Shown piece by piece: positions 26,488 through 44,541 of a stretch of DNA of 46,146 nucleotides. Both the position numbers and the translations under genes were made by a program. Position 1 is the first letter of the stretch, and each line of letters starts with the position of its first letter. The DNA lies in IMG/VR virus record IMGVR_UViG_3300025930_000019, positions 1 through 46,146 of that record. One strand, written 5' to 3'. The notes under the pieces were generated by a model. It made no database searches and was not told the origin of the DNA. It saw only the letters and a list, made by a program, of their open reading frames with translations. The DNA is from a virus.

Positions 26488-26929
26488 CCGACGAAGCGTT
26501 ATCCGCGACCAGATTGTGTTTTCCGTGCTGGATGAAGTGTCCCGCAACCGCCCGCTGGCCGAAGCCGAAAGCGAACTGCTGGCGCTGACCATGCGCCGCT
26601 TGGAAGTCAAGCACGCCTTCTACCAGTGGACCCGCGCGGAGGACGACGCCATCCGCCGGCTGATGGCCCGGCGCTACGCCCGCAAGACCAAAACCAAGCC
26701 GTCGCAATCGAGCCGCGAAATCCGCGAACTGGCCGACACGCTGGGCCGCTCCTACCGCGCCGTGCATCGCCGCATGGAGCGATTACGCAAGCGCCTCATC
26801 CACCGCAAACCGGCCCATCCGCAATTGTCGCAGAGCCTTAACGGCCATGGCAGCCTAGATTCCGGGGATGGACAGCAAAGTGACCCCTATAAAACTCTGC
26901 CCTCCGCCGAGGCGGAAGGGCGGCCGTAA
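26477..26929 (+). CDS. Myb/SANT-like DNA-binding protein
   Basis: 150 residues from ATG 26477. Residues about 50-105 (WTRAEDDAIRRLMARRYARK, then SREIRELADTLGRSYRAVHR) have the W-x-E...L...G-R-T/S-x-x-A-V pattern of a Myb/GcrA-like helix-turn-helix. It sits immediately before the late region, and the first late promoter lies inside its 3' end. It is one candidate for the late activator. Confidence 0.68.
   Translation: MESDRRSVIRDQIVFSVLDEVSRNRPLAEAESELLALTMRRLEVKHAFYQWTRAEDDAIRRLMARRYARKTKTKPSQSSREIRELADTLGRSYRAVHRRMERLRKRLIHRKPAHPQLSQSLNGHGSLDSGDGQQSDPYKTLPSAEAEGRP
26822..26861 (+). promoter_or_regulatory. Late promoter 1 (terS, leaderless)
   Basis: CAATTGTCGCAGAGCC (26822-26837) and -10 TAGATT (26856-26861). 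The terS ATG at 26868 is six bases beyond the -10, at the expected +1. It lies inside the end of the Myb-like gene. The upstream CCCATCCGCAATTGTCG is identical to late promoter 5. Confidence 0.75.
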
Positions 26930-27368
26930 GGCGTGGATTCCGCGAGCGCGTGACCGCCACCACATCAAGGTGATGAAGGCCGCCGGTTTCTCAGACGAAG
27001 CTTGCGCCCGCGTGATGGGCGTTTCGGAAACTGTTTTGAAAAAGCGCTGCGCCAAGGAACTCGCCAACGGCGCGCAGGAAGTCAACGCCAAGGTCGCCAA
27101 CAAACTGTTCGGCAAGTGCATGAAGGGCGACACCGTATCGTTGCTGTTTTGGTCAAAGACGCGCCTTGGCTGGCGCGAAACCAATCGCACTGAGCATACC
27201 GGCGCGGACGGCGGCCCGATTGTCTATGAGCAAATCGAGGCCGAGGCCGCCGCGTTCACCCAGCACATTGCACAAATGGCCGAGCGGTTCGCCGTCCCCA
27301 AACCAGCCAACAATGACGAGCCGCCGGCCGCCGAGGAATTGACTCAAAAGTCAACCAAGGAGGCTTAG
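26868..27368 (+). CDS. terS: Terminase small subunit
   Basis: 166 residues. The N-terminus is basic, then a helix-turn-helix (HIKVMKAAGFSDEACARVMG, VSETVLKKRC), oligomerisation helices (NAKVANKLFGKCMKGDTVSL) and RLGWRETNRTEHTG, typical of small terminases that recognise packaging sites. It is followed by the large subunit after one small gene. Predicted leaderless from late promoter 1. Confidence 0.85.
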   Translation: MDSKVTPIKLCPPPRRKGGRKAWIPRARDRHHIKVMKAAGFSDEACARVMGVSETVLKKRCAKELANGAQEVNAKVANKLFGKCMKGDTVSLLFWSKTRLGWRETNRTEHTGADGGPIVYEQIEAEAAAFTQHIAQMAERFAVPKPANNDEPPAAEELTQKSTKEA

Positions 27369-27509
27369 ATGATTCCGTTCATCCTGATGGTGGTGGCGCT
27401 GATTTTGTTCATTCTCGCCGCACTGCATGAGCCGCGCTACAGCCAATTGCTGACCGCCGGGCTGGCGTTCATGGCCGGCAGTTTCGTGTTCCAGCTTTAT
27501 CCGGGATAG
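27369..27509 (+). CDS. Small two-span membrane protein between terS and terL
   Basis: 46 residues; ATG 27369 with AAGGAGG upstream; its TAG is immediately followed by the terL ATG. Two hydrophobic spans (IPFILMVVALILFILAAL and LLTAGLAFMAGSFVFQL). An unusual gene in this place. It could be a pinholin-like protein or a membrane tether; not recognised. Confidence 0.6.
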   Translation: MIPFILMVVALILFILAALHEPRYSQLLTAGLAFMAGSFVFQLYPG

Positions 27510-28883
27510 ATGAACGACCAACTAAGCCCGGCGCAAATCCTGGCGATGTTGCCAGAGGCCGAGCGCGCCGCCGAACTGGCCAAGCTTAACCGTATCACCC
27601 TCGCTTCGCTGCGCACGTTCTGGCGGCTTCACGCCCGGCCGGCGCAACTCGCCCCGGCGGGCAACTGGCTGACTTGGCTTGTGCTGGCCGGGCGCGGCTT
27701 CGGCAAAACCAGGACCGGGGCGGAATGGGTGAGGGAGAACTGCACCGGCTCCACCCCGCTGACCGGCGCCAAGTATGGCAACATCGCCATCATCGCCGAA
27801 ACCGCCGGGGATGCCCGCGATGTGATGATTGAAGGGCGCAGCGGCTTGCTGGGCTGCCACCCCAAGGATTTCCGGCCGCTCTACCAGCCGGCGCTGCGCC
27901 GCGTGACTTGGCCGAACGGCGCGATTGCCAACGTGTTCAATGCCACCGAACCCGACCAGTTACGCGGCCCGGAACATGATTTGGCGTGGGGCGACGAATT
28001 GGCCAAGTGGGCTTACGCCCGCGAGACTTGGGACCAGTTGATGTTCGGACTTCGGCAGGGCCAGCCGCCGCGCTGCTGCATCACGACCACGCCGCGCCCG
28101 CTGCCGATTTTGCGGGAAATCGTGGCCGATGAATCGACCGTCATAACCAAGGGCATCACCTTGGATAACAGCGACAACCTGGCGCCGTCCTTCATTCGCC
28201 AAATCATGCGCAAATACGAAGGCACGCGGTTGGGGAGGCAGGAATTGAACGCCGAGATTCTGGACGATTACCCCGGCGCGCTGTGGACCCGGCTTGTGCT
28301 GGACGATTGCCGGGTCAAACCGGACAAGGTGCCGGACATGGCCCGCGTGGTGGTCGGGGTCGACCCGAGCGGGACCAGCGGCGAGGATGATGAGGGCGCC
28401 GATATCGGCATCATTGTCGCCGGCCGGGGGATTGACGGGCGCGGCTATGTCATGGCCGACTTCACTTGCAAGCTGTCGCCGGACGGCTGGGCGCGGCGGG
28501 CAATCGACGCCTACCATTTGCATGAAGCCGACCGGATTGTGGCGGAAACCAATTACGGTGGCGCCATGGTCAGAGCGGTAATCAAGACGGCCGATGCCAA
28601 TGTTGCCTACAAGGAAGTCCATGCCAGCCGGGGCAAGGTGGCGCGGGCCGAGCCAATTGCCGCGATGTTTGAACAAGGCCGCTGTTCCTTGATTGGCGGC
28701 TTCCCCGAACTGGAAGATGAAATGGTGCTAATGACTTCCAACGGCTATGTCGGCGAGGGCAGCCCGAACCGGGTGGATGCGATGGTCTGGGCGTTGACTG
28801 AGTTGATGCTTACCCATGTCCCGGCATCGAGCGCAGACGACAATAGCATTACAATTCCCGGTCTGCTAAACGCCTTCCGATAA
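27510..28883 (+). CDS. terL: Terminase large subunit (packaging ATPase/nuclease)
   Basis: 457 residues. ATPase domain: Walker A AGRGFGKTRTG (about 60-70), Walker B LAWGDELAKW (about 155), coupling TTTPRPLP. Nuclease domain: VVVGVDPSGTSGEDD (catalytic Asp), VAETNYGGAMVRAVI, and SPNRVDAMVWALTELML. The length is typical. It powers DNA entry through the portal and cuts the concatemer. Similar to gene-transfer-agent and alphaproteobacterial prophage terminases. Start directly behind TAG. Confidence 0.94.
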   Translation: MNDQLSPAQILAMLPEAERAAELAKLNRITLASLRTFWRLHARPAQLAPAGNWLTWLVLAGRGFGKTRTGAEWVRENCTGSTPLTGAKYGNIAIIAETAGDARDVMIEGRSGLLGCHPKDFRPLYQPALRRVTWPNGAIANVFNATEPDQLRGPEHDLAWGDELAKWAYARETWDQLMFGLRQGQPPRCCITTTPRPLPILREIVADESTVITKGITLDNSDNLAPSFIRQIMRKYEGTRLGRQELNAEILDDYPGALWTRLVLDDCRVKPDKVPDMARVVVGVDPSGTSGEDDEGADIGIIVAGRGIDGRGYVMADFTCKLSPDGWARRAIDAYHLHEADRIVAETNYGGAMVRAVIKTADANVAYKEVHASRGKVARAEPIAAMFEQGRCSLIGGFPELEDEMVLMTSNGYVGEGSPNRVDAMVWALTELMLTHVPASSADDNSITIPGLLNAFR

Positions 28884-28906
28884 TTGCGTGAGCCGGGAAT
28901 TAGGGA

Positions 28907-29242
28907 TTGCAGCCCAAGACGCCTTCCATTGAGGAAATCGAGCGCCGGTTAAACCTGGCCGGCAAGCGCACGGCCGATGTGCCGGAACTGGCCAGCTTCC
29001 GCCGCAAGTTTCGCTGGCGCTTCTACCGGCTGGCCGACATGGGCATGTTCCTGACGATATTCGGCACAATCGTGGCCATTTGGCCAAGCAATGCGGCATG
29101 GTTCGCGGCGGTTCCCGGCGCGCTTATGGGCTTTTGGACAGCCTTGTTTGCCGAGCGCCGCGCCCGGCTGATGAGCCGCCAGCTTAAGCGCCGCGCTGCC
29201 GAGCAACTGTGGCTGGATATGAACGGACGACTTGATGAGTAA
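28907..29242 (+). CDS. Membrane protein with two spans, holin candidate
   Basis: 111 residues from TTG 28907 (in-frame stop just upstream; AGGGA close by). MGMFLTIFGTIVAIWPSNAA and WFAAVPGALMGFWTALFA form two helices, followed by a basic, helical C-terminus. Topology suits a class II holin, but identity is unproved. Confidence 0.55.
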   Translation: MQPKTPSIEEIERRLNLAGKRTADVPELASFRRKFRWRFYRLADMGMFLTIFGTIVAIWPSNAAWFAAVPGALMGFWTALFAERRARLMSRQLKRRAAEQLWLDMNGRLDE

Positions 29243-29591
29243 CGCACAGCGCGAACAGCAATTGCCGGAAATTTGCACGCCGGAAGAACTGATGTGGCTG
29301 GCCGACATGGCCGCCAGAAACCACTATGTAGCGCCGACGCCCATGGGCAATGGCCGCTATTGCTGCATTGCCCCGTTTGCTTTCACCCATGCCATTATCA
29401 CTGGCCGGATGGGCGACAATTGGGGCTATGCCGACCGTTGGTGCTTTGAGAACATTGGCCTTGCCTTGACAGCGTTATTCGATTGGGCTGGAAAGGATTT
29501 CGAGGGCGAGCCGCAAGGCTGGCACCGCCATCCCGACAGTGGACGGCGGCGGCCGGAAGGGGATGCCAGCAAGGAATACGTTCACCACTAA
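29235..29591 (+). CDS. Conserved phage protein of unknown function
   Basis: 118 residues; ATG 29235 overlaps the upstream TAA. HAIITGRMGDNWGYADRWCF, then HRHPDSGRRRPEGD near the end, resembles small proteins in alphaproteobacterial prophages. Function unknown. Confidence 0.65.
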   Translation: MSNAQREQQLPEICTPEELMWLADMAARNHYVAPTPMGNGRYCCIAPFAFTHAIITGRMGDNWGYADRWCFENIGLALTALFDWAGKDFEGEPQGWHRHPDSGRRRPEGDASKEYVHH

Positions 29592-29612
29592 GAAAAAGCC
29601 GGGAGAATTAAC

Positions 29613-30071
29613 ATGACAAGTGAAACTTGGGATGGCGAGAACCGCCGAAGCGTTGGGCCATCAGGCGAAACGCTGCTGACTCTGACCGCTGATATTGTCG
29701 CGGCCCATGTCAGCAACAACAGCGTGGCAGTGAATGACTTGCCGCAACTGATTAACAACGTGCATAGCGCGCTGGGCGGGCTTTTGACCCCGCCGCCCGA
29801 GGAAAAGCAGCAGCCGAAAGTGGGCATCAAGGCCAGCGTCAAGCCGGATTACATCATCTGCCTTGAGGACGGCAAAAAGCTGAAAATGCTGAAACGCCAC
29901 ATCATGACTCACTACGGCCTGACGCCCGACCAGTATCGCCAGAAGTGGGGCTTGTCGGCCGACTATCCGATGGTCGCGCCGAACTATGCCGAGCAGCGCC
30001 GCGTGCTTGCCAAATCCATCGGCTTGGGCAAGATTCGCAGAAGGTCACAGACAAGGAAGAAACCAGCATAG
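29613..30071 (+). CDS. MucR/Ros-family transcriptional regulator
   Basis: 152 residues; ATG 29613 behind GCCGGGAGAATTAAC. LTADIVAAHVSNNSVAVNDL, then CLEDGKKLKMLKRHIMTHYG and LTPDQYRQKWGLSADYPMVA, PNYAEQR, are diagnostic of MucR/Ros, the alphaproteobacterial zinc-finger nucleoid regulator (H-NS-like). The finger is C-x-x-D...H...H, with Asp at the second Cys as in many MucR proteins. It is last in the terminase unit, ahead of a strong terminator. It may control phage genes or host lysogeny traits. Confidence 0.92.
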   Translation: MTSETWDGENRRSVGPSGETLLTLTADIVAAHVSNNSVAVNDLPQLINNVHSALGGLLTPPPEEKQQPKVGIKASVKPDYIICLEDGKKLKMLKRHIMTHYGLTPDQYRQKWGLSADYPMVAPNYAEQRRVLAKSIGLGKIRRRSQTRKKPA

Positions 30072-30191
30072 AATCCCGGCGTGCGGGCGATTCGGCAAAA
30101 TGACCCCTCCCGCGCCGCGATAGGATGGAAAGGCCCAAAGACCCTCCTACATTCCGAGCAAGTCTGTTTGCAGACTTTGGCCATCCGTCCC

Positions 30192-30239
30192 GGCCCCGGC
30201 ATTTGGTGCAACGCCAAGTGACCGGGGCCAACCTTTTTG
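30192..30239 (+). terminator. Rho-independent terminator after the MucR-like gene
   Basis: A long near-perfect stem: GGCCCCGG (30192-30199) to CCGGGGCC (30222-30229), extended by the inner CATTTGG/CCAAGTG pairs around a seven-base loop, then CCTTTTTGG. This ends the unit that begins at terS. Confidence 0.85.
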
Positions 30240-30421
30240 GATGATTATGCAGCGCGTCAGACTCATATGCGCGCATATCCGGGCAGCGGATTGCATAAAC
30301 AAATAAGCCCCCGCGCGAGAACCCAATCTAGCGAGCCGGGAGACTCATAGGAGGACTCGGTCGCGCGAGGACCCATTGGTGAGGCATGGCAGCCTCAACG
30401 CGCTAGATAGAGGCACCAGCG
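30240..30421 (+). other. Structured non-coding region before the portal gene
   Basis: Contains a 14-bp perfect palindrome ATATGCGCGCATAT (30265-30278); two direct copies of CGCGCGAGRACCCA at 30312-30325 and 30362-30375; a 7-bp closing stem TCTAGCG (30327-30333) with CGCTAGA (30400-30406); and a hairpin GAGGC/GCCTC (30381-30396). No gene is seen in 30072-30421. It may hold a small RNA or a packaging or regulatory site. Confidence 0.4.
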
Positions 30422-30461
30422 CAATTGTTCAAATGCCACTTGCCGCATGGGCCGATATGAT
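30422..30461 (+). promoter_or_regulatory. Late promoter 2 (portal, leaderless)
   Basis: CAATTGTTCAAATGCC (30422-30437) and -10 TATGAT (30456-30461); the ATG at 30468 lies six bases beyond. Upstream is the terminator at 30192-30239. Confidence 0.78.
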
Positions 30462-30467
30462 GCCGGC

Positions 30468-32627
30468 ATGGCGACGGCAGCCCGCAAATATGACGAACCC
30501 GACGACAAGCCGGAAGGCGAGGAAGAAGTCGAGGGCAAGGCATCGCCGTCGACATGGCCGGAAATCCACGAACGCGCGCTGAAACGCTTCGATGCGGCCA
30601 GCCAATACCAGTTGGAACTGCGCGCTCATTCGCTGCTGTGCCGCCGCTTTATCTCGATACCTGGCGCGATGTGGGAAGGGGCTTGGGGTGAGCAATTCGC
30701 CAATTCCATCAAGGTTGAAATCGACAAGCTTTCAAAGGGCGTCGACAAGATTGTTACTGACTATCGCGCCAATCGCATTGTGCCGGACTTCCGCCCGGCC
30801 GGTGGCGACAGCGATGCCGACACCGCCAACACCCTTGACGGCATCCACCGCGCCGACAGCTACCATTTCAAATCCCAGCAAGCCCGCGACAATGCCTTTG
30901 AGGAAGCAGCGGCCGGCGGCTTCGGCGCTTACCGGCTATGCAATGAATATGCGGATGAAAACGACCCGGAAAATGATGAGCAGAGAATCAATCCGGGGCT
31001 GCTGATTGCCGACGCTGACCAGCGCGTTTATTTCGATGCCAACGCCAAGCTTTACGACAAGTCGGACGCCCAATTCGGGTTCGTCCTGACCGCCGACAGC
31101 ATCGAGGCGTTCACCGAGGAATTTGGCGAGGACGCCGCGACCGATTGGCCGGAAAACCGGCAGGCCAGCCCGTTCGATTGGTTCACGCCCGATGTGGTGG
31201 TCAAGTGCGAGTATTACGAAGTCGAGAAGAAGAAGGAATCGCTGCACGTTTTCACCCATGCCCTGACCGAGCAGGAGGACCGCCGCTGGGCGTCGGAAAT
31301 CGACGCCGACACCATGGCCGACATGGAAAAGATGGGCTGGCGCAAGCAGACCCACCGCCGCGAGCGCAGGCGCGTTCACAAATATGTGATGAGCGGCGCC
31401 GAAATCCTTGACGATTGCGGCCTCATCGCCGGGCCGAACATTCCGATTGTGCCGGTCTATGGTAAGCGGTGGTTTGTCGACAACCAGGAGCGCTTCCGGG
31501 GCCATGTCTCGAAACTGATGGACGCCCAGCGCATCTACAATGGCCGCGTGTCGAAGCTGGCCGAAACCGATAGCCTGTCACCGCGCGAGAAGCCGATTTT
31601 CCTTGCCGAGCAGATGCCGCCGCACTTGCGCGACCTGTGGGCCAAGCAGGAACAGGAGCGCCACCCCTACGCGCTTGTGAATCCGGTGATTGACCCTGTG
31701 ACCGGCGAAATCAAAGCGATGGGGCCAATCGGCACGATTTCACCGCCCCAGCTTGGCCAGGTTACGGCGCTGCTGCTGCAACTGGCGGCGGGCGACTTGG
31801 CCGCCGAAACCGAGGACGGCGCCGACCAGGTTGTTGCCAACACATCGGCCGAGGCGATGGATATCGCCGCCACCCGCGTCGATACCAAGTCCGCCATCTA
31901 TCTCGACAACATGCGCCAGAGCGTCCAGCGCGAGGGCGAAATCTATCTCGGGATGGCGCGCGAGATTTATTACGAACCCGGTCGGGAAATGGAAACCATG
32001 ACCGAGGAAGGCGAGGACGGCAAAGCCACCCTGATGGAGCCGCACGCCGACGAAAAGGGCCAGTTTGGCTACCGCAACAATTTCGACACCGGCCGCTACA
32101 AGGTGATTGTCGACGTAACCGAGGCGACCACGACCCGCCGCGAAAAGACGGTGAAATCCTCACTCAAGACCGCCGAAGTGGCGATGATGGCGCAGAACAT
32201 GGACTTGGCCAACGCCGCCGTCATTACCGCCGTGATGAATCAGGATGGCGAGGGCATGGACGATTTGCAGCGCTACGCGCGCAAGCAGGGCGTCCAGATG
32301 GGCTTGGTAGAACCGAATGATGAGGAAAAGGCGGAAATGGAAGCTGCCGCCCAGAACCAGCAGCCCGACCCGATGATTGCGGTGGCGGGCGCGCAGGCAA
32401 CCGCGCTGGGCGCGGCAGCCCAGAAGGACGTTGCATCGGCCGGCAAAATCCGGGCCGACACCGCCCTGTCGGCGGCCAAGGCCACGCAAGTGCTGGCCGA
32501 CGCGCAAAAGAAGAAAGCCGAAGCTGCCGAAATCAAGAGCCGGCCGCCCGAGCCGCCCAAGGCGCCAGCGGCTCCGCAACCCATGCGCATCCGGCGCGGC
32601 TACGAACTTGAAGGGGCGAGGCCATGA
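30468..32627 (+). CDS. Portal protein, P22 gp1-like
   Basis: 719 residues from ATG 30468, selected because it coincides with the predicted +1; an ATG at 30447 would precede the transcript. The P22-type order is visible: RNRIVPDFRPAGGDSDADT-like wing region, DFDWFTPDV-type segment, GAEILDDC, NIPIVPVYGKRWFVDNQERF, VSKLAETDSLSPREKP and a long helical, Ala-rich C-terminal barrel region. The size matches P22 portal (725). Sits at the vertex as the DNA entry ring. Confidence 0.9.
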   Translation: MATAARKYDEPDDKPEGEEEVEGKASPSTWPEIHERALKRFDAASQYQLELRAHSLLCRRFISIPGAMWEGAWGEQFANSIKVEIDKLSKGVDKIVTDYRANRIVPDFRPAGGDSDADTANTLDGIHRADSYHFKSQQARDNAFEEAAAGGFGAYRLCNEYADENDPENDEQRINPGLLIADADQRVYFDANAKLYDKSDAQFGFVLTADSIEAFTEEFGEDAATDWPENRQASPFDWFTPDVVVKCEYYEVEKKKESLHVFTHALTEQEDRRWASEIDADTMADMEKMGWRKQTHRRERRRVHKYVMSGAEILDDCGLIAGPNIPIVPVYGKRWFVDNQERFRGHVSKLMDAQRIYNGRVSKLAETDSLSPREKPIFLAEQMPPHLRDLWAKQEQERHPYALVNPVIDPVTGEIKAMGPIGTISPPQLGQVTALLLQLAAGDLAAETEDGADQVVANTSAEAMDIAATRVDTKSAIYLDNMRQSVQREGEIYLGMAREIYYEPGREMETMTEEGEDGKATLMEPHADEKGQFGYRNNFDTGRYKVIVDVTEATTTRREKTVKSSLKTAEVAMMAQNMDLANAAVITAVMNQDGEGMDDLQRYARKQGVQMGLVEPNDEEKAEMEAAAQNQQPDPMIAVAGAQATALGAAAQKDVASAGKIRADTALSAAKATQVLADAQKKKAEAAEIKSRPPEPPKAPAAPQPMRIRRGYELEGARP

Positions 32628-33037
32628 CCATTGCAGCACTTGAAGGCCGACTTGAAATCCCGGCGGACCCCGGCGCCGTCAGCAGCGAGTTGGGCTTTAC
32701 CGAGCGCGCAATTCCGGCCGGCGCGGCGGCGATTTCCGAGCGCTTCTATCCCAACCCGGTCAACGAACCAGGCGCCACCGCCATTTTCAATATCTTTATC
32801 GTCAGCATCAATTTCACCGGCGATGTTTACCTGATTAAACATGCGCCGAGCGATTCCGAACATTTCAAAAAGCGCATGTTCCGCGTGATGGGCGCGCAGG
32901 ACGAAGTGAAGTGGCCGATGCTGCCCGAGGAAGCGATTGCCGATAGCGTGCAGGAGCCGGAAAACGGGACCAGTTACGCGCTGGCGATGTTCGGCGAAAT
33001 CCCCGGCGAGCATATCTATTTCCGGTTCAGCACCTAG
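32624..33037 (+). CDS. Unknown protein coupled to portal
   Basis: 137 residues, ATGA overlap with portal. Beta-rich; contains NPGATAIFNIFIVSINFTGD-like and EIPGEHIYFRFST. Possibly a minor capsid protein; not recognised. Confidence 0.62.
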   Translation: MTIAALEGRLEIPADPGAVSSELGFTERAIPAGAAAISERFYPNPVNEPGATAIFNIFIVSINFTGDVYLIKHAPSDSEHFKKRMFRVMGAQDEVKWPMLPEEAIADSVQEPENGTSYALAMFGEIPGEHIYFRFST

Positions 33038-33053
33038 CGCAGCGTCCCGCCAT

Positions 33054-33093
33054 CAATTGTGCAAATGCGGGACGCCCGTTGCTGCCCTAGAAT
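33054..33093 (+). promoter_or_regulatory. Late promoter 3 (scaffold)
   Basis: CAATTGTGCAAATGCG (33054-33069) and -10 TAGAAT (33088-33093). Here the leader is about 46 bases, and the scaffold ATG at 33146 has no strong ribosome site. Confidence 0.78.
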
Positions 33094-33145
33094 CCCCGCT
33101 TCAAGGCAACCGCCGCGCCTGTAAGCGGTGAGGCACAGGTGATTT

Positions 33146-34030
33146 ATGCAGCGGCAACCGCCCGACGACGACGAACCCCTTGAACTGACCCCCGACATGG
33201 AAGCTGACGAAGGCCCGGATGATGAATCCGAGGAAGGCGGCGAGGGCGAGGAAGAACACGACCAGCCCGACGACGAAGGCGAGGAAGCGGAGGCCGAGCC
33301 GGAAGCGGAGGCCGAACCCGAGGAACCGGCCGGGCCAGCTTTCGAGGATGAGCCGGCCGAAGGCGACAGCAGCGTTATCCGCACACTGCGCGAGCGCAAC
33401 CGCGAACTGGCCCGCATTGTCGCGGAATCGCAGCGGCCACAGCCACAGCAGCAGTTTGAATTGCCGCCCGAGCCGACCTTGGCCGACTGTGGTTATGATG
33501 AGGCCGAATTTAAGAAAAAGACGATTGCTTGGGAGCGTGGCCGGCAACAGGTTGAAGATGCCAAGGCCGAGCAAGAGGCACAGGCGCAAGTCGCCAACCG
33601 CGAGTGGCAGCGCGACCTTGAAGGCTATGCGGCCAAGCGCGATGCGCTCAAGTTGCCAGATTTCGAGGCCAGCGCCGAAACCGTCAAAACCAGCCTCAAT
33701 CTCGCCCAGCAAGCGGTGGTGATTAAAGCCGCCAGCGACAGCGCCGCGTTCGTCTATGCGCTGGGCCGCAGCGATACCAGGCTGGCCGAACTGGCGAAAA
33801 TTCAGGACCCCATCAAACTGGCCGCCGCCGTGGCGCGCATGGAGGGAGGAATCAAGGTGGTGAAAAAGCGCAAAGCCCCGGCTCCCGACAAGCCGCTCAG
33901 CGGCGCCGGCAGGATGCCCGGCGGCCCCGACAAGCAGTTGGAAAAACTGGAAGCCGATGCCGAACGCACTGGCGACCGCACGGCGGTAATTGCCTATCGG
34001 AAAAAACTGAAAGAGCGCGGCAAAAAGTGA
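33146..34030 (+). CDS. Scaffolding protein, P22 gp8-like
   Basis: 294 residues. Acidic low-complexity N-terminus (about 1-65, many Glu/Asp/Pro), a helical middle (WERGRQQVEDAKAEQEAQAQ) and a basic C-terminus (YRKKLKERGKK). This acidic-helical-basic organisation and the position between portal and coat are those of the P22 scaffold, which directs procapsid assembly and then leaves. A basic C-terminal coat-binding helix is expected and present. Confidence 0.82.
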   Translation: MQRQPPDDDEPLELTPDMEADEGPDDESEEGGEGEEEHDQPDDEGEEAEAEPEAEAEPEEPAGPAFEDEPAEGDSSVIRTLRERNRELARIVAESQRPQPQQQFELPPEPTLADCGYDEAEFKKKTIAWERGRQQVEDAKAEQEAQAQVANREWQRDLEGYAAKRDALKLPDFEASAETVKTSLNLAQQAVVIKAASDSAAFVYALGRSDTRLAELAKIQDPIKLAAAVARMEGGIKVVKKRKAPAPDKPLSGAGRMPGGPDKQLEKLEADAERTGDRTAVIAYRKKLKERGKK

Positions 34031-34048
34031 CGCCGAGTTGCCCGCTTG

Positions 34049-34088
34049 GAATTGTCGAAATGCGCGGGCTTGACGAACTGCCTATTAT
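34049..34088 (+). promoter_or_regulatory. Late promoter 4 (coat)
   Basis: GAATTGTCGAAATGCG (34049-34064) and -10 TATTAT (34083-34088), the best -10 of the set. The coat ATG is 112 bp on, so this message has a leader of about 106 bases with its own ribosome site (AAGGGCAGGGC). Confidence 0.78.
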
Positions 34089-34200
34089 TATTCCCGCATA
34101 GCCGCAAAGTCAGCTTCCCCCGGCTGCCAAATGGGGAGTCCAGCGGCCCGACCGGCGCAAGCCGAGAACCCGGAAAATCGTCAGAGCGAAGGGCAGGGCA

Positions 34201-35466: not shown

Positions 35467-35504
35467 GGAAGCGCACGACTCTGGCGCGAAGAAAGGACGA
35501 TGCG

Positions 35505-36086: not shown

Positions 36087-36146
36087 GGCGCAAAGCCTTC
36101 GCCAATCGTTTCGGAATCCCTCACTTTTTGACGAAGGGTATCAAGC

Positions 36147-36302: not shown

Positions 36303-36312
36303 GCAATGAGGC

Positions 36313-36330
36313 ACCCGGTTAAAACCGGGT
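36313..36330 (+). terminator. Hairpin before late promoter 5
   Basis: ACCCGGTT-AA-AACCGGGT, an 8-bp stem with a two-base loop, followed by AATAACGG rather than a T-tract. It may be a weak terminator or an RNA processing site at the end of the coat unit. Confidence 0.4.
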
Positions 36331-36378
36331 AATAACGGCCGGGCGGGAGCCGAGCGCAGAAATCCCGCCACCCATCCG

Positions 36379-36418
36379 CAATTGTCGAAAAGCGCTGAGC
36401 GCGCCCGCGCCCTAAAAT
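36379..36418 (+). promoter_or_regulatory. Late promoter 5 (tail adaptor, leaderless)
   Basis: CAATTGTCGAAAAGCG (36379-36394) and -10 TAAAAT (36413-36418); the ATG at 36425 is six bases beyond. Confidence 0.78.
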
Positions 36419-36424
36419 GCGCCC

Positions 36425-36919
36425 ATGCCGATTACGATTTATATCAATGACGAAGGCCCGCCCAAGCGCCAGATAGTCGAATTGGCGTTTAGCGAATGTG
36501 CCATGGCCGGCTACGAATTCGGCCGCACCGCCGAGGAAGTGGCCGACGCGCTGCAACGGCTCAATGCGATGATGGCCGAATGGCTGACGCTGCGCGGCAT
36601 TGACCTTGGCTATAACCAGCCGACCTATGGCACCGGCAATCCCGACGAACTGAGCGGCATCCCGTTTGAAACCCTGAACACGGTGGCAAGCTTCCTGGCG
36701 TTGCGGGTCGCGCCGATGATGGGCGCCCAGATTTCAGTCGAGACAAAGGGCAATCTGACGCGTTCGCTGCAATTGCTGGAAGCCCATTATTCCAGCATCC
36801 CGACCATGCCCCACGACCCCCAGACCCCGCGCGGCTTGGGCAATAAGCAGGGACTCTATTTCGGCCCCTATTTCCACGAAACAGCCGAGGATTTGAATCC
36901 GCCGGCAGTGGTGCCGTAG
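36425..36919 (+). CDS. Head-completion/tail adaptor, P22 gp4-like
   Basis: 164 residues, against 166 for P22 gp4. ELAFSECAMAGYEFGRTAEE, then LQRLNAMMAEWLTLRGIDLG, is the helical gp4 pattern. It should bind the portal and close the packaged head. Predicted leaderless. Confidence 0.82.
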   Translation: MPITIYINDEGPPKRQIVELAFSECAMAGYEFGRTAEEVADALQRLNAMMAEWLTLRGIDLGYNQPTYGTGNPDELSGIPFETLNTVASFLALRVAPMMGAQISVETKGNLTRSLQLLEAHYSSIPTMPHDPQTPRGLGNKQGLYFGPYFHETAEDLNPPAVVP

Positions 36920-36920
36920 C

Positions 36921-38309
36921 ATGAAGGTCCCGCTGCTTTCCGGCATCTATGGGGATGAGACAGCGGAGTTTCGCCAAAGCTATCCGCTCAATCTGGAGCC
37001 GGTTTCGCTCGATAACAAAATCAACAAAGGCCAGCTTCGCGCCACGGCTGGCGCGGTTGGCATTGTCAGCGGGCCGGGGATTAACCGGGGCGGCGTCTAT
37101 TTCAACGACATGCACTATCGCGTCATGGGAACGCGGTTTGTGCGGCTTCGCCGGGGCGGCACGATTGACGATTTGGGCGATGTGGGCGGCAGCGGGCCAG
37201 TGACCTTTGCCATCGGCCCCGACCGGCTGGCCGTGCGCAGTGAAAACCGGCTGTATTATTGGGATGAAACGGCGCTTACCCAAGTCACCGATGTTGACCT
37301 GATTGCGTGCAATGATGTGATTTGGATAGACGGCTATTTCATGTCGACAGACGGCAGCTACGTTGTCGTTACCGAACTGAACAACCCGATGGAAATCAAG
37401 CCGCTCAAATATGGCGCGGCTGAGGAGGACCCCGACCCGATTACCGGGCTGATTAAGTGCCGCAACGAAGCCTATGTGCTGGGCCGCCACACCATCCAGG
37501 TTTTCCGCAACGCTGGCGGCAGCGGCTTTCCCTTCCAGACCCAGCGCGGCGCGACCATCCCGGTTGGCTGTGTCGGGCCGATGGCCAAGTGCCTTTACTC
37601 TGACAGCTTCGCCTTTGTCGGCAGCGCCAGGAATGAGGCCATCGGCGTCTATCTGGCCGGTGCCGGTAGCGCCATGCGGATATCCAGCCGCGCGATTGAT
37701 GATGAACTGGCCAAGGTGGACGACCCGACCGCTATTGTGCTGGAAAACCGGACCAACCGGGCCGAGCGGCGGCTGTTCGTCCATCTGCCAACCAAGACGC
37801 TCGTGTTCCTGTCAAACCAGACCAAGGATGCCGGCGATGTGGTCTGGTATCACGCGCAGAGCGGCGTCAATAAGCCCTACCGGCTGCGCGATTCAATTGA
37901 AGCCTATGGCCGCATCATTGTCGGCGACACGGAATCCGCCCAGCTTGGCGAACTGACCGAGGCGGTGAACACCCATTTCGGCGAAAGCGCGCAGTGGCGG
38001 TTTGATTGCGGGCTTGTCTATAACGAAGGCAAGGGCGGCATCCTTCACGCGGTTGAATTGGTCGGGCTGCCCGGCCGCGCCCCGGCGGGCGTTGACGGCA
38101 CCGCCTGGCTGAGCCTCACGCGGGACGGCGAAACCTTTACCAGCGAGCGCGCGATACCGATGGGCGTGGCCGGCCAGCATACGCTTCGGCTGCACTGGCG
38201 GCCCCGGCAGAATTTCCGCAATTATCTAGGGCTGCGCTTTAGGGGTTTTAGTGCAGCCCTTCCCGGCTTCGCCGCGTGCGAGGCGAGGCTTAGCCCGCTG
38301 GCCGCCTGA
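36921..38309 (+). CDS. Packaged-DNA stabilisation protein, P22 gp10-like
   Basis: 462 residues, against 472 for P22 gp10. SYPLNLEPVSLDNKINKGQL, then GINRGGVYFNDMHYRVMGTR and beta-propeller-like strands (FIVCFG-equivalent AYVLGRHTIQVFRN; CVGPMAKCLYSDSFAFVGSA). Forms the tail hub after gp4. The start is two bases after the gp4-like stop. Confidence 0.84.
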   Translation: MKVPLLSGIYGDETAEFRQSYPLNLEPVSLDNKINKGQLRATAGAVGIVSGPGINRGGVYFNDMHYRVMGTRFVRLRRGGTIDDLGDVGGSGPVTFAIGPDRLAVRSENRLYYWDETALTQVTDVDLIACNDVIWIDGYFMSTDGSYVVVTELNNPMEIKPLKYGAAEEDPDPITGLIKCRNEAYVLGRHTIQVFRNAGGSGFPFQTQRGATIPVGCVGPMAKCLYSDSFAFVGSARNEAIGVYLAGAGSAMRISSRAIDDELAKVDDPTAIVLENRTNRAERRLFVHLPTKTLVFLSNQTKDAGDVVWYHAQSGVNKPYRLRDSIEAYGRIIVGDTESAQLGELTEAVNTHFGESAQWRFDCGLVYNEGKGGILHAVELVGLPGRAPAGVDGTAWLSLTRDGETFTSERAIPMGVAGQHTLRLHWRPRQNFRNYLGLRFRGFSAALPGFAACEARLSPLAA

Positions 38310-38830
38310 TGGCAGAGCATGAAGCCTTTGTGTCGCGCGATTTGCTCGAAAAATACTTCGGCGAGGACCCCCGCTTGCTGTCCGCCTTTGAAACTCAGGC
38401 GCGGCTAGTCGCGGAAACGGCGGAAGTGGTCGGCGGCAATGTCACCGCGACCAGCCGATTGCAGGACGCCACGGTTGTTACCCTGTCGCCCAATGACGAC
38501 CTGACCAACGAATTTTTGTTGTCCGGTGGCGATGGCACCAAGCTGGCGATTACGGCCGGCAGCGTGAAGGTCAATGTCGACAACACGGTTGCGCGCGTGA
38601 CGGCCAACAGCGTCAAATTCGTGCCGCCAGCGAACATCACCTTGGGCTTGCCCGGCGAAGGGACGCTCATCAGCGACACCTATGCCGCGTCCCTCTATAA
38701 CAAGCAGTTGGTCAAGCCGCTGCTGTCGGGACTGATAAACGCGGCCAGCAACCCGGATGCCGCTGCCGCTGGCGTGCCGATTGGCGGTATGTATCGGGAC
38801 GGCACCACGCTGAAAATCCGCCTGACCTGA
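38309..38830 (+). CDS. Structural protein, unknown
   Basis: 173 residues, start overlapping the gp10-like stop (TGATG). Helical N-terminus (FVSRDLLEKYFGEDPRLLSA), then beta-rich repeats. It ends GGMYRDGTTLKIRLT, an ending seen in other phage tail-tip proteins. Its position is that of the tail needle gp26 in P22, but no coiled coil is visible, so the role is open. Confidence 0.6.
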   Translation: MAEHEAFVSRDLLEKYFGEDPRLLSAFETQARLVAETAEVVGGNVTATSRLQDATVVTLSPNDDLTNEFLLSGGDGTKLAITAGSVKVNVDNTVARVTANSVKFVPPANITLGLPGEGTLISDTYAASLYNKQLVKPLLSGLINAASNPDAAAAGVPIGGMYRDGTTLKIRLT

Positions 38831-38851
38831 ATCGACTCTTTTGCGCTCGCG

Positions 38852-38891
38852 CAGTTGTTCAAATGCGGCGGGCATTTCCACGGTCTATCTT
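38852..38891 (+). promoter_or_regulatory. Late promoter 6 (ejection proteins, leaderless)
   Basis: CAGTTGTTCAAATGCG (38852-38867) and -10 TATCTT (38886-38891); the ATG at 38898 is six bases beyond. Confidence 0.78.
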
Positions 38892-38897
38892 TGGCCA

Positions 38898-39758
38898 ATG
38901 GCACTTTTCTCACTTGTCGGCGGATTGATTGGCGCCAGCAAAGCCAAAAAGGCTTCAAAGAAGGCTGAGAAGGCCCAATCCAAGGGCATCCGGCAGGCGA
39001 TGGATGAGGAACGGCTGCGGTTCGGCCAAACCGAAGCCCAATACCAGCCATATGTTGATGCCGGGACACAGGCGCTTGGCGGCTACGGCAATTTGGTCGG
39101 GCTTGGCGGCGCCGAGCAGCAGCAAGCGGCAATCGACCAGTTACGCAATTCGCCGTTCTACCAATCGCTCTATCGCCGGGGCGAGGAAGCGCTGTTGCAG
39201 AACGCGTCGGCGACCGGCGGACTTCGCGGCGGCGACACCGAGCGCGGCTTGGCCGATTTCGGCGCCGACACGCTGGCCACCACGATTGACCGGCAGTTAG
39301 GCAATCTGGGCAATCTCACCACGCTAGGTTCCGGCATGACCGGGCAGTTGGGCCAATTCCGGCAAGCACTGGCGGACAACATCGCCAATCTCCAAGTCGG
39401 GCAGGGCCAAGCCAAGGCACAGGACTATCTCACGCGCGGCGCAATCTCCGCGCGCAACTGGCAGAACATCGGCAGCTTTGGCGACCAGGCGGCAGCGGCG
39501 ATTGCGGGCGGCATCGGCGCGGGTGGCGGCTTTGGCGCAATGGGCGCGGGCGGCGCCCCGTTTGACATGACGGCCATGATGAACAGCATTTTTGGCGCCG
39601 CCCCGGCCGCGCAATCGGGCGGGATGGGCGGCTTCGGCGGCTTCGGCAGCATGGGCGGCGGCGGCGGCTGGACTCCGCCCTATGCCGGCATCCCCGGCCC
39701 CATGTCCTACAATCCACAGGGAAGCTTCCTGTCGAATAGCACGCGCGGAGGCTATTGA
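38898..39758 (+). CDS. Ejection (DNA transfer) protein, gp7-like
   Basis: 286 residues from ATG 38898. MALFSLVGGLIGASKAKKAS, then YQPYVDAGTQALGGYGNLVG, matches the short phage DNA-transfer/ejection protein family. Ala/Gly-rich, with a very Gly-rich C-terminal third. It leaves the head with the DNA into the periplasm. ORF overlaps the next start (TGATG). Confidence 0.82.
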   Translation: MALFSLVGGLIGASKAKKASKKAEKAQSKGIRQAMDEERLRFGQTEAQYQPYVDAGTQALGGYGNLVGLGGAEQQQAAIDQLRNSPFYQSLYRRGEEALLQNASATGGLRGGDTERGLADFGADTLATTIDRQLGNLGNLTTLGSGMTGQLGQFRQALADNIANLQVGQGQAKAQDYLTRGAISARNWQNIGSFGDQAAAAIAGGIGAGGGFGAMGAGGAPFDMTAMMNSIFGAAPAAQSGGMGGFGGFGSMGGGGGWTPPYAGIPGPMSYNPQGSFLSNSTRGGY

Positions 39759-40894
39759 TGCCGGTCGGCGGCTATCAGCCGCTCGATTACTCGGGCGCAA
39801 TTAATTACGCGGCCAACGCGGTGCCGGACTATGCCGACCAACAGATGAAGGCCCAACTGCGTGATGTTCAACGGCGCCAAATCGGGTTGCAGGAACGGCA
39901 GGAGGACACAAAAAACCAGCGCCAAGCGCAGTTGCAGGCGCGAATAGCTGGCCTTGGGCCGCTGCCGAAGGCCGAGGACATTGCCGCCGTCATGCGCGAG
40001 TTTCCCGAGATTGCGCAGGAATATAAGCAGAGTTGGGATATTCAGGACGCGGCGACCAAGCAGCGCGGGCTGTTGCAGGGTTCGGAAATGGTGAGGCTGG
40101 CCATGACCGACCGGCCCAAAGCGGCGGCGCTGCTGCGCGAAATGGCCACCACGACCGGCAGCCCCGAACACGAAGCCTATGCCACGCTGCTGGAATCCAA
40201 GGACCCAAAAGATTGGGATAAGGCGACCAAGCTGATGGCCGCCGACATGTATGCCAAGATTGGCGATGCGGCGAAATATGACGAGACGTTCGGCGACCTG
40301 ATGCCGAAGGAAAAGGATTTGCCGGCCGATGTTCGCTCTTATCGGTATTACCAGCAGAACGACCCGGTTCGGGCCGCCGCGATGCGCCAGCACAGCATCG
40401 AAGGCCCGCTTTCGGCCGTCTATGACAGCGAGGGCAATATCGTCGGCTCAATGCCGCTTGGTGCCTTGCCGCGCCTTGGCGGCGGCGGCACCACGCCACC
40501 GCCCGCGCCCGCGCCAGCGACCAGCGGCCCGGCTGGCGCGTTGTTCGGCCCGGACATTGAAAAGACGGTCAAAGACGCAATTCCTGGCGTGACCGTGACC
40601 AGCGGCCTTCGCAGCCCGGAGGACAACAAACGCGTCGGCGGCGTGACCGGCTCGATGCACATGACCGACCAAGCCCGCGATTTCACCCCGCCCAAGGGCA
40701 TGAAAATGAACGAATTGGGCGTGAAGCTTCGGCAAATGTTTCCCAATGCCGATGTGATTAATGAGGGCGACCATATCCACGTTGAAAGCCGCGTTCGGGC
40801 GGCTGGCGGCGGGCGGCCGACCAAGGCCATTGGCGGGAAGAAATATGTCAAGTTGGGACCGAACCCAACGGATTGGTTTGAGGTAGCAGCCTGA
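39758..40894 (+). CDS. Ejection protein with M15-type peptidase domain
   Basis: 378 residues from ATG 39758, with GGAGG upstream. Helical N-terminal 240 residues, a Pro/Ala linker (PPPAPAPATSG) and a C-terminal domain, VTSGLRSPEDNKRVGGVTGS, then MHMTDQARDF and EGDHIHVES. SxHxxxxAxD plus HxH are the zinc ligands and context of M15/VanY-type peptidoglycan peptidases. It may open the cell wall during DNA entry. Confidence 0.82.
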   Translation: MPVGGYQPLDYSGAINYAANAVPDYADQQMKAQLRDVQRRQIGLQERQEDTKNQRQAQLQARIAGLGPLPKAEDIAAVMREFPEIAQEYKQSWDIQDAATKQRGLLQGSEMVRLAMTDRPKAAALLREMATTTGSPEHEAYATLLESKDPKDWDKATKLMAADMYAKIGDAAKYDETFGDLMPKEKDLPADVRSYRYYQQNDPVRAAAMRQHSIEGPLSAVYDSEGNIVGSMPLGALPRLGGGGTTPPPAPAPATSGPAGALFGPDIEKTVKDAIPGVTVTSGLRSPEDNKRVGGVTGSMHMTDQARDFTPPKGMKMNELGVKLRQMFPNADVINEGDHIHVESRVRAAGGGRPTKAIGGKKYVKLGPNPTDWFEVAA

Positions 40895-43875
40895 TGCTCC
40901 AACGCGTAACCGACCCTGCCTTGATGGCGCAGCTTGAAGGCGGCGAAGCCCCGGAATCGGCCCCGGCTGCTGCCCCATCGGGCGCCTTACCCAAGGGTTA
41001 TTCGCTTCGGCCGCCTCCCGCAAAGCCACAGCCAAAAACGTCCTACACGCCCATGTCGGCCGACGACAAAAAGAAATACGGGCTGGACGTTCGATTCCCG
41101 TATTTTATGAGCAGCGAAGGCAAGCCCGACTTGCCGGAAGGCTTCAAGCCGGAGTCAGTCGAAGGCAAGCCCGTCTCGGAATGGGCTGCCAAGAGATTCA
41201 CCATCCCGAGGGACCAATACGAGCCGCTCGCAAATGCGACTGACTCGTTCCAAGATGACTTTGGCGGCAACACGCTGACCGGCAGCCTTGAAAGCCAAGT
41301 CCAAGCGCTGTTCAGCGATGTTGGCACTCCGGGCCAGCGCGATTGGTGGTCAAATTTCTACCAGACCGACATGGCAATTCGCCACGGTCTGTATGGTTCG
41401 GCGCTAACCCCGGTCGAGAAGAAATCCTACGACCAGGCCACCGTCACCCCGAACATGGACCCGAAGGAAATCCGCCGGAACCTGTCTCGCCGCCGCGAAC
41501 TCATTCGCAAGGCGACGGCGCGCGAATATAATTTCATGCTTAAGCAGGGCTATAACCCAGAGGCGGTTGACGCTTTGGCCGGCGAACGCGCTGGCGATTA
41601 CAAGCCCGATTACGTTCCGCCGTCCGAGGAAGAAAAGCCGCCCGGTCCCGGCGATATTGGCTTTTCCGGCAATGTGCCGCCCGAGACAAAGAACCCGCTG
41701 AGCGAACAGGAGCAAGCCGCCTACGATGCCTTTATGACGGCCAACCCGAAGGCGTCGGCCGACGATTTGCGCAATTTCATGCGCGCCCTGAATCCCAAAC
41801 TCGACATTTCAAATGCCGAGGACATTGTGAAGTCGCGGGATGCAGCGGGCGGCAAATTTGTGCCGGGCAGTGAGGCGGTTCCTGGCCTGACCGCCGAACA
41901 GCAGGCCGAAGCACAGCGCCGCGTTGACGCGACCGGCGCCATTGGCCAAATCGGCGCTGGCGCCGCCGATATTCTGTCAATGGGAACATCGCAAAAACTG
42001 ATTGCGGGCGCCCGCAGCCTGTTGGGCAAGGGCGACTATGAAAGCGAATTGGCGATTGCCAATGAAGCCGACCGCCGCGCCCAAGAGCAGCATCAATGGT
42101 TGTATGGCGGCGGGCAGCTTGCCGCTGGCCTTGCTCTGCCGGTTGGGGAGGCGACGACCCCGTTGCGGATGGCCGGGACGGCTGGCGCTTATGGTGCCGG
42201 CTATGGCCTAGGTTCCAGCGATACGCTGGCCGAGGCGCCCGCCAACATGCTGACGCAAGGGACGTTGGCCGCTGGCACTGCCGGGCTGCTTGGCATGGGC
42301 GCAAACAAGGTTGGCGATATCCTGTCCAACCGCGCTTCGCGCCAAGCGCTTGCTCAGACCACGGCGCCGCCGGCAGCAGCGGACTTGGGCGAGCGCGCGG
42401 CGCAATACGGGCTTGACCTGTCGCGCGGCGATGTGGGCGGCCCGGTCGCGCGCACCGCTGAAAAGATTCTGGATTATCTGCCGGGCAGCAGCCATGTGAC
42501 ACAGGCGGCGCGCGACAGGCTGGCGGCAGAGGTTCCCGAGGCGGCCGGGCGCGTGGCCGGGAAGTTTGGCGAGCCGACCGATTTCCGCGCAACCGGCGTG
42601 GCGCTTGAGCGCGGCAAGGGCGTTTGGGAAACCGAATTCGAGAAGGCGAGTAAGGACGCCTACGAGGCCATCCCGATTGGCGACAAGGTTAATGGCGTGC
42701 TGGACAAGACGCGCGCCAAGCTTGCCGAACTGACCGGCAAATATGAATCCAACCCTGAAATGGCCGCCGCGCAAGAGGACTCGCTGCTGACCAAGTGGCG
42801 GGACGCGCTGAGCGACAAGCAGGTGCCGACAGGCGCGCTTGACGAAGCCGGGCAGCCCATCATGGAAACCGTGCCATCGCCGGGGCTTAGCTGGCCGGAC
42901 TTGAAGCAATTCCGCACCGATGTTGGCCGCGAACTGCGCAAAAAGCAGTGGACCGAGGGCGCCGAGTCCGGCGACCTGAAACAGCTTTATGGCGCGCTGT
43001 CCGAGGACATGCGGAAAACCGCCGAGGCCCAAGGCCCGGAAGCATTGAAGGCATTTGAACACGCCAACAAACTTTATCAGGAAGGCCAGGACCGGATTGA
43101 TGATGCGTGGAAGAACATTTTCGGCAAGCGGATGGAAGCCGAGCCGGAAGCGGCTGCCGCGAAATTCCGCACCATGGTTCAGGAAGGCAAGGGTGGCGGC
43201 AACCTAAAGGCCATCAACGCGGTGTGGAAATCGCTGCAACCGGCCGAGCGCGGCGAAATCGCCCATGGCATGATGCAGATGCTTGGCCACAAGGCCGGGA
43301 AGTTTGACCCGGAAACTTTCGTCAAGGGCTTCGATAACATGTCGCCCGAGGCCAAAAATGTGGTGTTCGGCCCGGCGAACAAGGAATTGCGCCAGCACCT
43401 TGATGGCTTCGCCGATGTGCTGCGCGAAATGGGGGAAAAGAAGTCGCTCCGGTCGGGCCGGATTGGCAAGGATTTGATTACCGGCGGCATCGCCGGTTCG
43501 CCGCTGACCCTACTGCTGTTCAACCCGGCCATATTCCTGCCGGTGGCGGCCAAAATGACGGCAGTGGCGGGCGGCGCCAATGTCATGGCGAAAATGTGGA
43601 CGAACCCGGATGCAATGAAGTGGGCGACCGGCTTTATGAAAATGGCGCGCGGCGCGCAGAAGGCGGGCAAGGATGCCTCGCCGGAAGCCCTGACAACGCA
43701 AGCCAACCTGCTGAACAAGCTGATTACCAAGCACGCCGGGATGGCGCCCGAACTGACCACGCTGCGCGAGGCGATACTGAATTATGCGCAAACCGGCGGG
43801 AAGCCGGTAGAGCAGCCGGCCGAGGCACCGGCAGCGGCGCCATTGGAAGTGCCGGACATGGCGCCCGCGCAATAG
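40894..43875 (+). CDS. Large ejection protein
   Basis: 993 residues. Pro-rich N-terminus, a charged middle, an Ala/Gly-rich hydrophobic stretch (about 400-480: IGAGAADILSMGTSQKLIAG, YGGGQLAAGLALPVGEAT) and another near 870-900 (SPLTLLLFNPAIFLPVAAKM). Overlaps the previous stop. Size, membrane-active segments and position match gp16/gp20-like internal virion proteins of P22-type phages. Confidence 0.75.
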   Translation: MLQRVTDPALMAQLEGGEAPESAPAAAPSGALPKGYSLRPPPAKPQPKTSYTPMSADDKKKYGLDVRFPYFMSSEGKPDLPEGFKPESVEGKPVSEWAAKRFTIPRDQYEPLANATDSFQDDFGGNTLTGSLESQVQALFSDVGTPGQRDWWSNFYQTDMAIRHGLYGSALTPVEKKSYDQATVTPNMDPKEIRRNLSRRRELIRKATAREYNFMLKQGYNPEAVDALAGERAGDYKPDYVPPSEEEKPPGPGDIGFSGNVPPETKNPLSEQEQAAYDAFMTANPKASADDLRNFMRALNPKLDISNAEDIVKSRDAAGGKFVPGSEAVPGLTAEQQAEAQRRVDATGAIGQIGAGAADILSMGTSQKLIAGARSLLGKGDYESELAIANEADRRAQEQHQWLYGGGQLAAGLALPVGEATTPLRMAGTAGAYGAGYGLGSSDTLAEAPANMLTQGTLAAGTAGLLGMGANKVGDILSNRASRQALAQTTAPPAAADLGERAAQYGLDLSRGDVGGPVARTAEKILDYLPGSSHVTQAARDRLAAEVPEAAGRVAGKFGEPTDFRATGVALERGKGVWETEFEKASKDAYEAIPIGDKVNGVLDKTRAKLAELTGKYESNPEMAAAQEDSLLTKWRDALSDKQVPTGALDEAGQPIMETVPSPGLSWPDLKQFRTDVGRELRKKQWTEGAESGDLKQLYGALSEDMRKTAEAQGPEALKAFEHANKLYQEGQDRIDDAWKNIFGKRMEAEPEAAAAKFRTMVQEGKGGGNLKAINAVWKSLQPAERGEIAHGMMQMLGHKAGKFDPETFVKGFDNMSPEAKNVVFGPANKELRQHLDGFADVLREMGEKKSLRSGRIGKDLITGGIAGSPLTLLLFNPAIFLPVAAKMTAVAGGANVMAKMWTNPDAMKWATGFMKMARGAQKAGKDASPEALTTQANLLNKLITKHAGMAPELTTLREAILNYAQTGGKPVEQPAEAPAAAPLEVPDMAPAQ

Positions 43876-43889
43876 GCGCAGCCCTAGTG

Positions 43890-43929
43890 CAATTGTTCAA
43901 GCGCGCCGGGGCGCCGGTTTTTCTATCCT
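43890..43929 (+). promoter_or_regulatory. Late promoter 7 (tailspike, leaderless)
   Basis: CAATTGTTCAAGCGCG (43890-43905) and -10 TATCCT (43924-43929); the ATG at 43936 is six bases beyond. Drives the tail proteins through the junction to 3119. Confidence 0.76.
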
Positions 43930-43935
43930 TACGAC

Positions 43936-44541
43936 ATGACAAAGGTGGTCAATCCGCTGCCGCTTTACCTCGACGGGCGCGGCTTTCTGCTGGATGCCGG
44001 CTATATCTATGTCGGCGCCGCCAATACCAACCCGGAAACCCCGGCGAACCGGCTGCAACTGTTCTGGGATAATGCGCTGACCATCCAAGCGGCCCAGCCG
44101 CTCCGCACCTTGGGCGGGGTGGTGGTCAATGGCCAGAACCCGGCCTTGGTATTCCTCGCCGAAGCCAATTACTCCATGACCGTCAAGGATGCCGATGGCG
44201 TCCTGGTTCAGAACATTCCGAGCGCGGCGGATACCGGCGGCGCGGCCGTCAGTTACCAGCCGCTCGATGCCGACTTGACGGCCATCGCCGCACTGGCCAC
44301 TACTGCTTACGGGCGCGGCTTGCTCATTTTGGCGAACCAGGCCGCGCTCAAATCCGCCACCGGAATCCCCGACCCGCTGCCGTTGATTGGCGGCACCGTC
44401 ACCGGCAATATCCTACGCGGCAGCGCGGGCGCGCATCTCTATCATAATACCGCCGGCATGAACTCGGGCCGCGTGTTCCTCACCGCCGAGGGCGCGGCTG
44501 ACCCGACCAGCCTAGCCGGCGATATCTGGCTGACTTACTGA
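43936..44541 (+). CDS. Tail protein with P22 tailspike-type head-binding domain
   Basis: 201 residues. LPLYLDGRGFLLDAGYIYVG, then NPETPANRLQLFWDNALTIQ and AQPLRTLGGVV, is the P22 gp9-type virion-binding domain. NYSMTVKDADGVLV follows. Only a short C-terminal part comes after, so it is probably an anchor for the longer fibre encoded at 45032 rather than a complete spike. Confidence 0.82.
   Translation: MTKVVNPLPLYLDGRGFLLDAGYIYVGAANTNPETPANRLQLFWDNALTIQAAQPLRTLGGVVVNGQNPALVFLAEANYSMTVKDADGVLVQNIPSAADTGGAAVSYQPLDADLTAIAALATTAYGRGLLILANQAALKSATGIPDPLPLIGGTVTGNILRGSAGAHLYHNTAGMNSGRVFLTAEGAADPTSLAGDIWLTY

Follow-up and report, generated by a model that had tools for sequence, protein, structure and literature searches.

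How does a P22-like phage switch on its late genes when the same promoter-like element stands in front of one late unit after another? The question is raised by a 46-kb IMG/VR contig with P22-type late genes (record IMGVR_UViG_3300025930_000019; its full 46,146 nucleotides are called the window here). The late genes in the window are terS, terL, portal, scaffold, coat, the adaptor gene gp4, the closure gene gp10, the ejection gene gp7 and a gene for a tailspike N-terminus. Among them lie seven blocks of 46 bases, each with a 16-bp box and a TANNNT −10 hexamer. We regard it as probable that these blocks act as late promoters in a family of short-tailed, P22-like phages, served by a phage activator, most likely a Myb-like protein, together with host sigma-70, and giving rise mostly to leaderless mRNAs.

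The blocks were read directly in the window. All seven carry the box, and in 7/7 a TANNNT hexamer occupies positions 35-40. All are on the + strand. Late promoter 1, that of terS, has its box at 26822-26837, TAGATT at 26856-26861 and an ATG at 26868. Late promoter 2, that of the portal gene, has its box at 30422-30437, TATGAT at 30456-30461 and an ATG at 30468. Promoters 3 and 4 precede scaffold (block 33054-33099, box 33054-33069, TAGAAT 33088-33093) and coat (block 34049-34094, box 34049-34064, TATTAT 34083-34088). Next come promoter 5 of the gp4-like head-tail adaptor gene (box 36379-36394, TAAAAT 36413-36418, ATG 36425), promoter 6 of the gp7-like DNA ejection gene (box 38852-38867, TATCTT 38886-38891, ATG 38898) and promoter 7 of the tailspike N-terminus-like gene (box 43890-43905, TATCCT 43924-43929, ATG 43936). 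In five of the seven blocks, those of terS, portal, gp4, gp7 and tailspike, the ATG starts six bases past the −10, and leaderless mRNAs are predicted for these genes.

TANNNT is found at 0.4% of window positions, and the chance of meeting it in 7/7 blocks at one offset is about 7e-16, with 43 offsets allowed for. For an ATG in at least five of seven blocks at one given offset, the chance is about 4e-8. At three or fewer mismatches the box pattern was matched 12 times in the window versus 3.8 expected, and none of 100 shuffles reached 12. At two or fewer mismatches there were six matches, all on the + strand and all at late units. The refined core of the box is AAWTGTNSAAAYGC. The weakest copy is the terS box at 26822, CAATTGTCGCAGAGCC, which is located within the open reading frame (ORF) of the Myb-like protein; at the same place the relatives L010, L015, L089 and C268 carry a better box.

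In a loose sigma-70 scan, a TTGACA-like −35, 16-18 nucleotides (nt) from the −10, turned up weakly at a single site of the seven (30433), and positions 17-34 of the block hold little information across the family. If transcription starts 7 nt below the −10, the box spans −46 to −31. This is a class II-like activator-promoter layout, with a conserved site over the −35 place, a fixed spacing and a −10 that lacks a −35. The initial annotation had claimed seven boxes at a fixed distance from the −10, five ATGs and no conserved −35. All of this was found in the sequence, the boxes, spacing and ATGs far above chance.

Relatives were collected by portal similarity alone, with the motif unused (L007-L023), and ten non-redundant contigs of this set were counted. 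They contain 29 sites, 29/29 on the late strand; the −10 lies at position 35 in 20 of them and at position 36 in 3, and the reversed sequence of these contigs contained no box sites. Family-wide, 70 of 88 non-identical sites have the −10 at 35, versus 0.3 expected per offset, the sites being partly pattern-selected; a few relatives have it at 36 instead. A pattern that required box, spacing, −10 and ATG exactly matched 23 stretches among 2.9 million viral contigs, where about 1 would be expected by chance (hand estimate). Several of the 23 are contigs already found through portal similarity. Pattern matches in L034, L035 and L044, one in each, look like chance and were rejected. An alignment search with the Myb-like protein led to five new contigs, and 5/5 have a box and −10 at the 3′ end of the Myb-like gene. 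The initial annotation had proposed a search of related phages; those found through the portal or the Myb-like protein share with the window the box and its strand, as well as the spacing and the distance to the start codon.

One relative is the 45.6-kb phage contig QHMY01000052.1 (G012:C268) in a Verrucomicrobia metagenome-assembled genome (MAG), which is colinear with the window save for a circular permutation. It holds six exact boxes with the TA, and no further box turned up at 0 mismatches elsewhere in the 3.6-Mb assembly. The contig was probably mis-binned into this MAG, or else points to an unexpected host. In L042 and L019 the order of the late modules is unlike that of the window, with gp4-gp10 ahead of the portal gene or far behind coat, and each module keeps its own promoter. 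The closest annotated phage record found, Sphingopyxis phage VSN-002 (L024, isolate record MZ127829; portal 56%), has a sister box on its complement strand, TAATTTGCSNAAANG, in exactly four copies and on the late strand only. In 4/4 copies the TA follows the C of CAAA (or the base equivalent to it) at 26 bases, the spacing also seen in the window, and the portal GTG of VSN-002 starts 6 nt past TAAACC. In G003 (L084, L085) a different box, WAGACCCGTAAAATAS, stands in three copies ahead of portal, scaffold and gp7, with a −10 spacing that by eye is inconsistent. Simple word counts revealed no box equivalent in the more distant G001 and G002.

As a control, 385 genomes from a single bacterial class, that of an Emcibacteraceae MAG (Alphaproteobacteria), were searched for box plus −10; the genome of the window's own host lay outside this search. 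Three single matches were obtained, which is the chance level, and the reversed control gave 0. The Myb-like protein gave one marginal match in the same genomes. Both results indicate that the late regulon is the phage's own.

Family sites were then sorted by their downstream gene and counted gene by gene. The start codon lies 6-9 nt past the −10, mostly 6, at portal (17/17), gp4 (14/14), gp7 (8/8) and tailspike (6/6), which are 45/45 of the listed sites. At the first late gene it lies 3-9 nt past the −10 in 13 of 14 sites. A close start codon was seen at none of the 16 coat sites and at one of the 20 scaffold sites, where the ATG lies inside the conserved leader. The same split was observed in contigs found by the portal route and by the Myb route. 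In the window, Shine-Dalgarno duplex energies indicated a ribosome site at scaffold and coat and none at the five predicted leaderless genes; the portal score was taken at the longer ORF start. This longest portal ORF begins at 30447 and shares its reading frame with the ATG at 30468, the start that agrees with the family's 'MAT..'. The prediction of leaderless terS, portal, gp4, gp7 and tailspike mRNAs, already made in the initial annotation, is well supported because the start-codon distance is kept per gene across the family and a ribosome site is absent.

The two remaining units have conserved leaders. In the scaffold mRNA an H-type pseudoknot (33100-33132, + strand; S1 GGC/GCC, S2 CGCCGC/GCGGTG) stands directly before the ribosome site, with the scaffold ATG at 33146. 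Leader loops were cut out by hand before the stems were compared, since MAFFT misregistered the scaffold loops, and the alignments lean toward structure for this reason. In these alignments the scaffold pseudoknot has 100% paired cells in 11 distinct sequences (the family including L010, L031 and L040), two-sided changes in 4/6 S2 pairs and a covariation of 0.48, where shuffles gave 0.16 and slid controls no more than 0.15. The coat leader (34100-34146, + strand; coat ATG 34201) has an AGCCGC/GCGGC closing stem around the pseudoknot CAGC..CCCCG..GCTG..TGGGG. The coat pseudoknot showed 93% paired cells in 8 sequences and four pairs with two-sided changes; the closing stem was seen by eye and is outside these pair counts. 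The coat pseudoknot is also present in the distant relatives G001 and G002, which are without the box, and a similar sequence is found in VSN-002. An Rfam search of the late region gave no credible match, its only two matches being far below the gathering scores.

The candidate late activator is a Myb/homeodomain-like DNA-binding protein encoded at 26477-26929 (+ strand) by a gene that runs at its 3′ end into the first late promoter and the start of terS. Homologs were found in every box-bearing contig that covers this place. This co-occurrence with the box upholds the candidate named in the initial annotation, and the Myb-like protein is, on present sequence evidence, most likely the activator that binds the box. 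Throughout the family the last codons of its gene are overlapped by the first late promoter, and this overlap is a possible reason why the window has a poor terS box. Distant homologs are encoded at the equivalent place in G001, G002 and VSN-002. A distant homolog together with a box of its own, as in VSN-002, is expected if regulator and site evolve together, although this is not proof. All 9 aligned Myb-like proteins match phrog_323 ('transcriptional regulator, D5-like'), the family of the D5 regulator of T5. The match is weak (best E 1.7e-5, in the window protein residues 45-115 only), and the profile of the T5 family has about twice the length. Further weak family matches were to Myb, to Sigma70_r4_2 (two members) and to the sigma factor family phrog_1740 (one member). 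The AlphaFold model has five helices and is confident over most of residues 1-110. A fold search of the PDB with this model gave no significant match, and the best look-alikes were mainly homeodomains.

We propose that each late unit of this family would be switched on separately. The activator would be phage-encoded, most likely the Myb/homeodomain-like protein from the gene upstream of the first late unit, and would bind the 16-bp box, which at −46 to −31 covers the usual −35 place and extends upstream of it. It would recruit or stabilise the host sigma-70 polymerase at the bare TANNNT −10, and transcription would begin about 7 nt below this hexamer. At terS, portal, gp4, gp7 and tailspike the +1 would be the A of the start codon, giving a leaderless mRNA, and at scaffold and coat it would open the conserved leader with its pseudoknot and ribosome site. 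More tentatively, and with rather less than even confidence, we suggest that one activator-driven promoter and two modes of translation set the stoichiometry of the virion. Leaderless messengers would then serve the parts needed in few copies (terminase, portal, adaptor, ejection protein and tailspike), and pseudoknotted leaders with ribosome sites the coat and scaffold proteins, of which hundreds are needed. Sensing of scaffold or coat protein may be a further role of the pseudoknots.

The initial annotation had left the choice between an activator site and a sigma-specific box, and the box does behave as such an element: it is restricted to the phages, stands without a −35, keeps its spacing in independent relatives and occurs where no sigma-factor family was matched among the ORFs scanned. 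Between the two, we think it unlikely, though deserving of attention, that an altered sigma or polymerase-bound factor reads the box, with a phage sigma-like protein, possibly the Myb-like protein as a substitute for sigma region 4, replacing the −35 contact. The spacing to the −10 is fixed at a single offset, as it is for sigma contacts; the −35 position coincides with the box's right half; and the weak Sigma70_r4_2 and phrog_1740 matches point the same way. However, no sigma-factor family was matched in the scanned ORFs (not every small ORF was scanned), a 16-bp box reaching −46 exceeds a −35 element, and TANNNT is an ordinary −10.

The promoters could also be correctly assigned while the five genes are carried on longer transcripts started upstream and are not leaderless in practice. 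The late units stand head to tail, a terminator scan gave no excess over shuffles, and an in-frame portal start 21 bases earlier is possible. Against this, the 6-9 nt distance is kept in all listed sites of four genes despite much divergence, and a read-through RNA would also lack a good ribosome site at these genes. We hold this reading to be quite improbable. About as little weight, or slightly less, is given to the box as an operator that represses the late genes, for example in a prophage, at otherwise ordinary promoters. A CI-like repressor gene is present (9695-10336), and an operator placed at −46 to −31 might obstruct the polymerase. Yet a −35/−10 pair exists at a single site, the weak one at 30433, so that a bare −10 would be weak unaided, and repression needs no single fixed spacing; we infer activation for the late promoters instead.

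It is very improbable that the phage has borrowed a host transcription factor and that the box serves as its site. Phages often borrow host regulators, but the class-wide genome search stayed at chance level with its three single matches, and one MAG that contains a box-bearing phage contig has no exact box outside this contig; a host factor as box reader was rejected on these grounds. Least probable of all is that the ROS/MucR regulator (29613-30071, + strand; Pfam ROS_MUCR E 1.7e-49), also put forward in the initial annotation, is the late regulator and the box its site: the family match is strong and in the closest relatives the gene stands amid the late genes, but it was undetected in the box-bearing L016-L018, L020, L031, L040 and the 21.8-kb G004 (fragments, so that a copy elsewhere is possible), with portal within about 100 bases of terL in L016 and L018, and the box is unlike MucR target DNA, which is rich in T-A steps; this candidate was set aside.

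Several points weigh against the activator-driven, mostly leaderless promoters that we favour. In some relatives the start codon lies 7-9 nt from the −10, so that the mRNA could keep a leader of 1-3 nt. The fold and family matches of the Myb-like protein are weak, and its link to the box is co-occurrence at a single locus, where the two travel together by linkage because the promoter overlaps the gene. The pooled counts are inflated because −10 and ATG were part of the pattern by which some contigs were recovered; some family rows are near-duplicates, and many contigs are fragments.

Outside the late region, the early genes of the window include RecT, an exonuclease, the CI-like repressor, RusA, a DNA methyltransferase, DnaB and a DnaD-like loader. 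VSN-002 as the nearest record and the presence of the ROS/MUCR gene suggest an alphaproteobacterial host. A queuine tRNA-ribosyltransferase-like gene (phrog_887) was also observed at 23214-23897 (+ strand), with a possible role in DNA or tRNA modification.

Phage P22 has one late promoter and Q-type antitermination. The window, in contrast, has seven repeated promoter-like units, and the boxes accompany the genes where their order differs (L042, L019). Closer parallels are the late promoters dependent on P2 Ogr, P4 delta and Mu C, where several promoters with a −10 and no good −35 are co-activated by a small phage activator, here the candidate. Ogr is a zinc finger protein with a site near −55, whereas the box of the window adjoins the polymerase at −46 to −31, the candidate is Myb/homeodomain-like and most units are predicted to be leaderless. 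No Ogr-type family was matched among the ORFs scanned. In T4 middle promoters a MotA box replaces the −35 at a fixed spacing from a sigma-70 −10, as does the box here; the MotA box is 9 bp long, centred near −30 and of another sequence, in contrast to our 16 bp at −46 to −31. AsiA and MotA redirect the sigma-70 holoenzyme in T4 (PMC5312081). Neither a MotA nor an AsiA family was matched among the ORFs scanned. Thermus phage P23-45 has extended −10 promoters and the polymerase-binding proteins gp39 and gp76, and its middle and late transcripts are reportedly leaderless. We know of no upstream box at a fixed distance for P23-45. Its promoters likewise do without a −35 contact, the host polymerase being reprogrammed by phage proteins (PMC7403470).

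The remark in the initial annotation that no description of such a regulon had been seen stood for the exact regulon and not for its parts. No description of this late regulon was found in the open-access literature (most subscription journals lie outside this coverage). Multi-promoter, activator-driven late regulons, however, are already known from P2 and Mu. Leaderless messengers are not new either, as phage transcripts are 'often leaderless' (PMC5312081) and 171 leaderless starts are on record for the alphaproteobacterium Sinorhizobium meliloti (PMC3616915). New, as far as found, are the family-wide late regulon, its gene-specific split and the paired structured leaders.

If this reading is true, P22-like phages exist in which separate activator-dependent late promoters replace one antiterminated operon, and in which most late messengers begin at the start codon. 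The family would supply a small phage-encoded activator whose site is defined. It would also offer a natural, repeated set of leaderless genes with known virion copy numbers, and thus a clean system for the tuning of leaderless translation.

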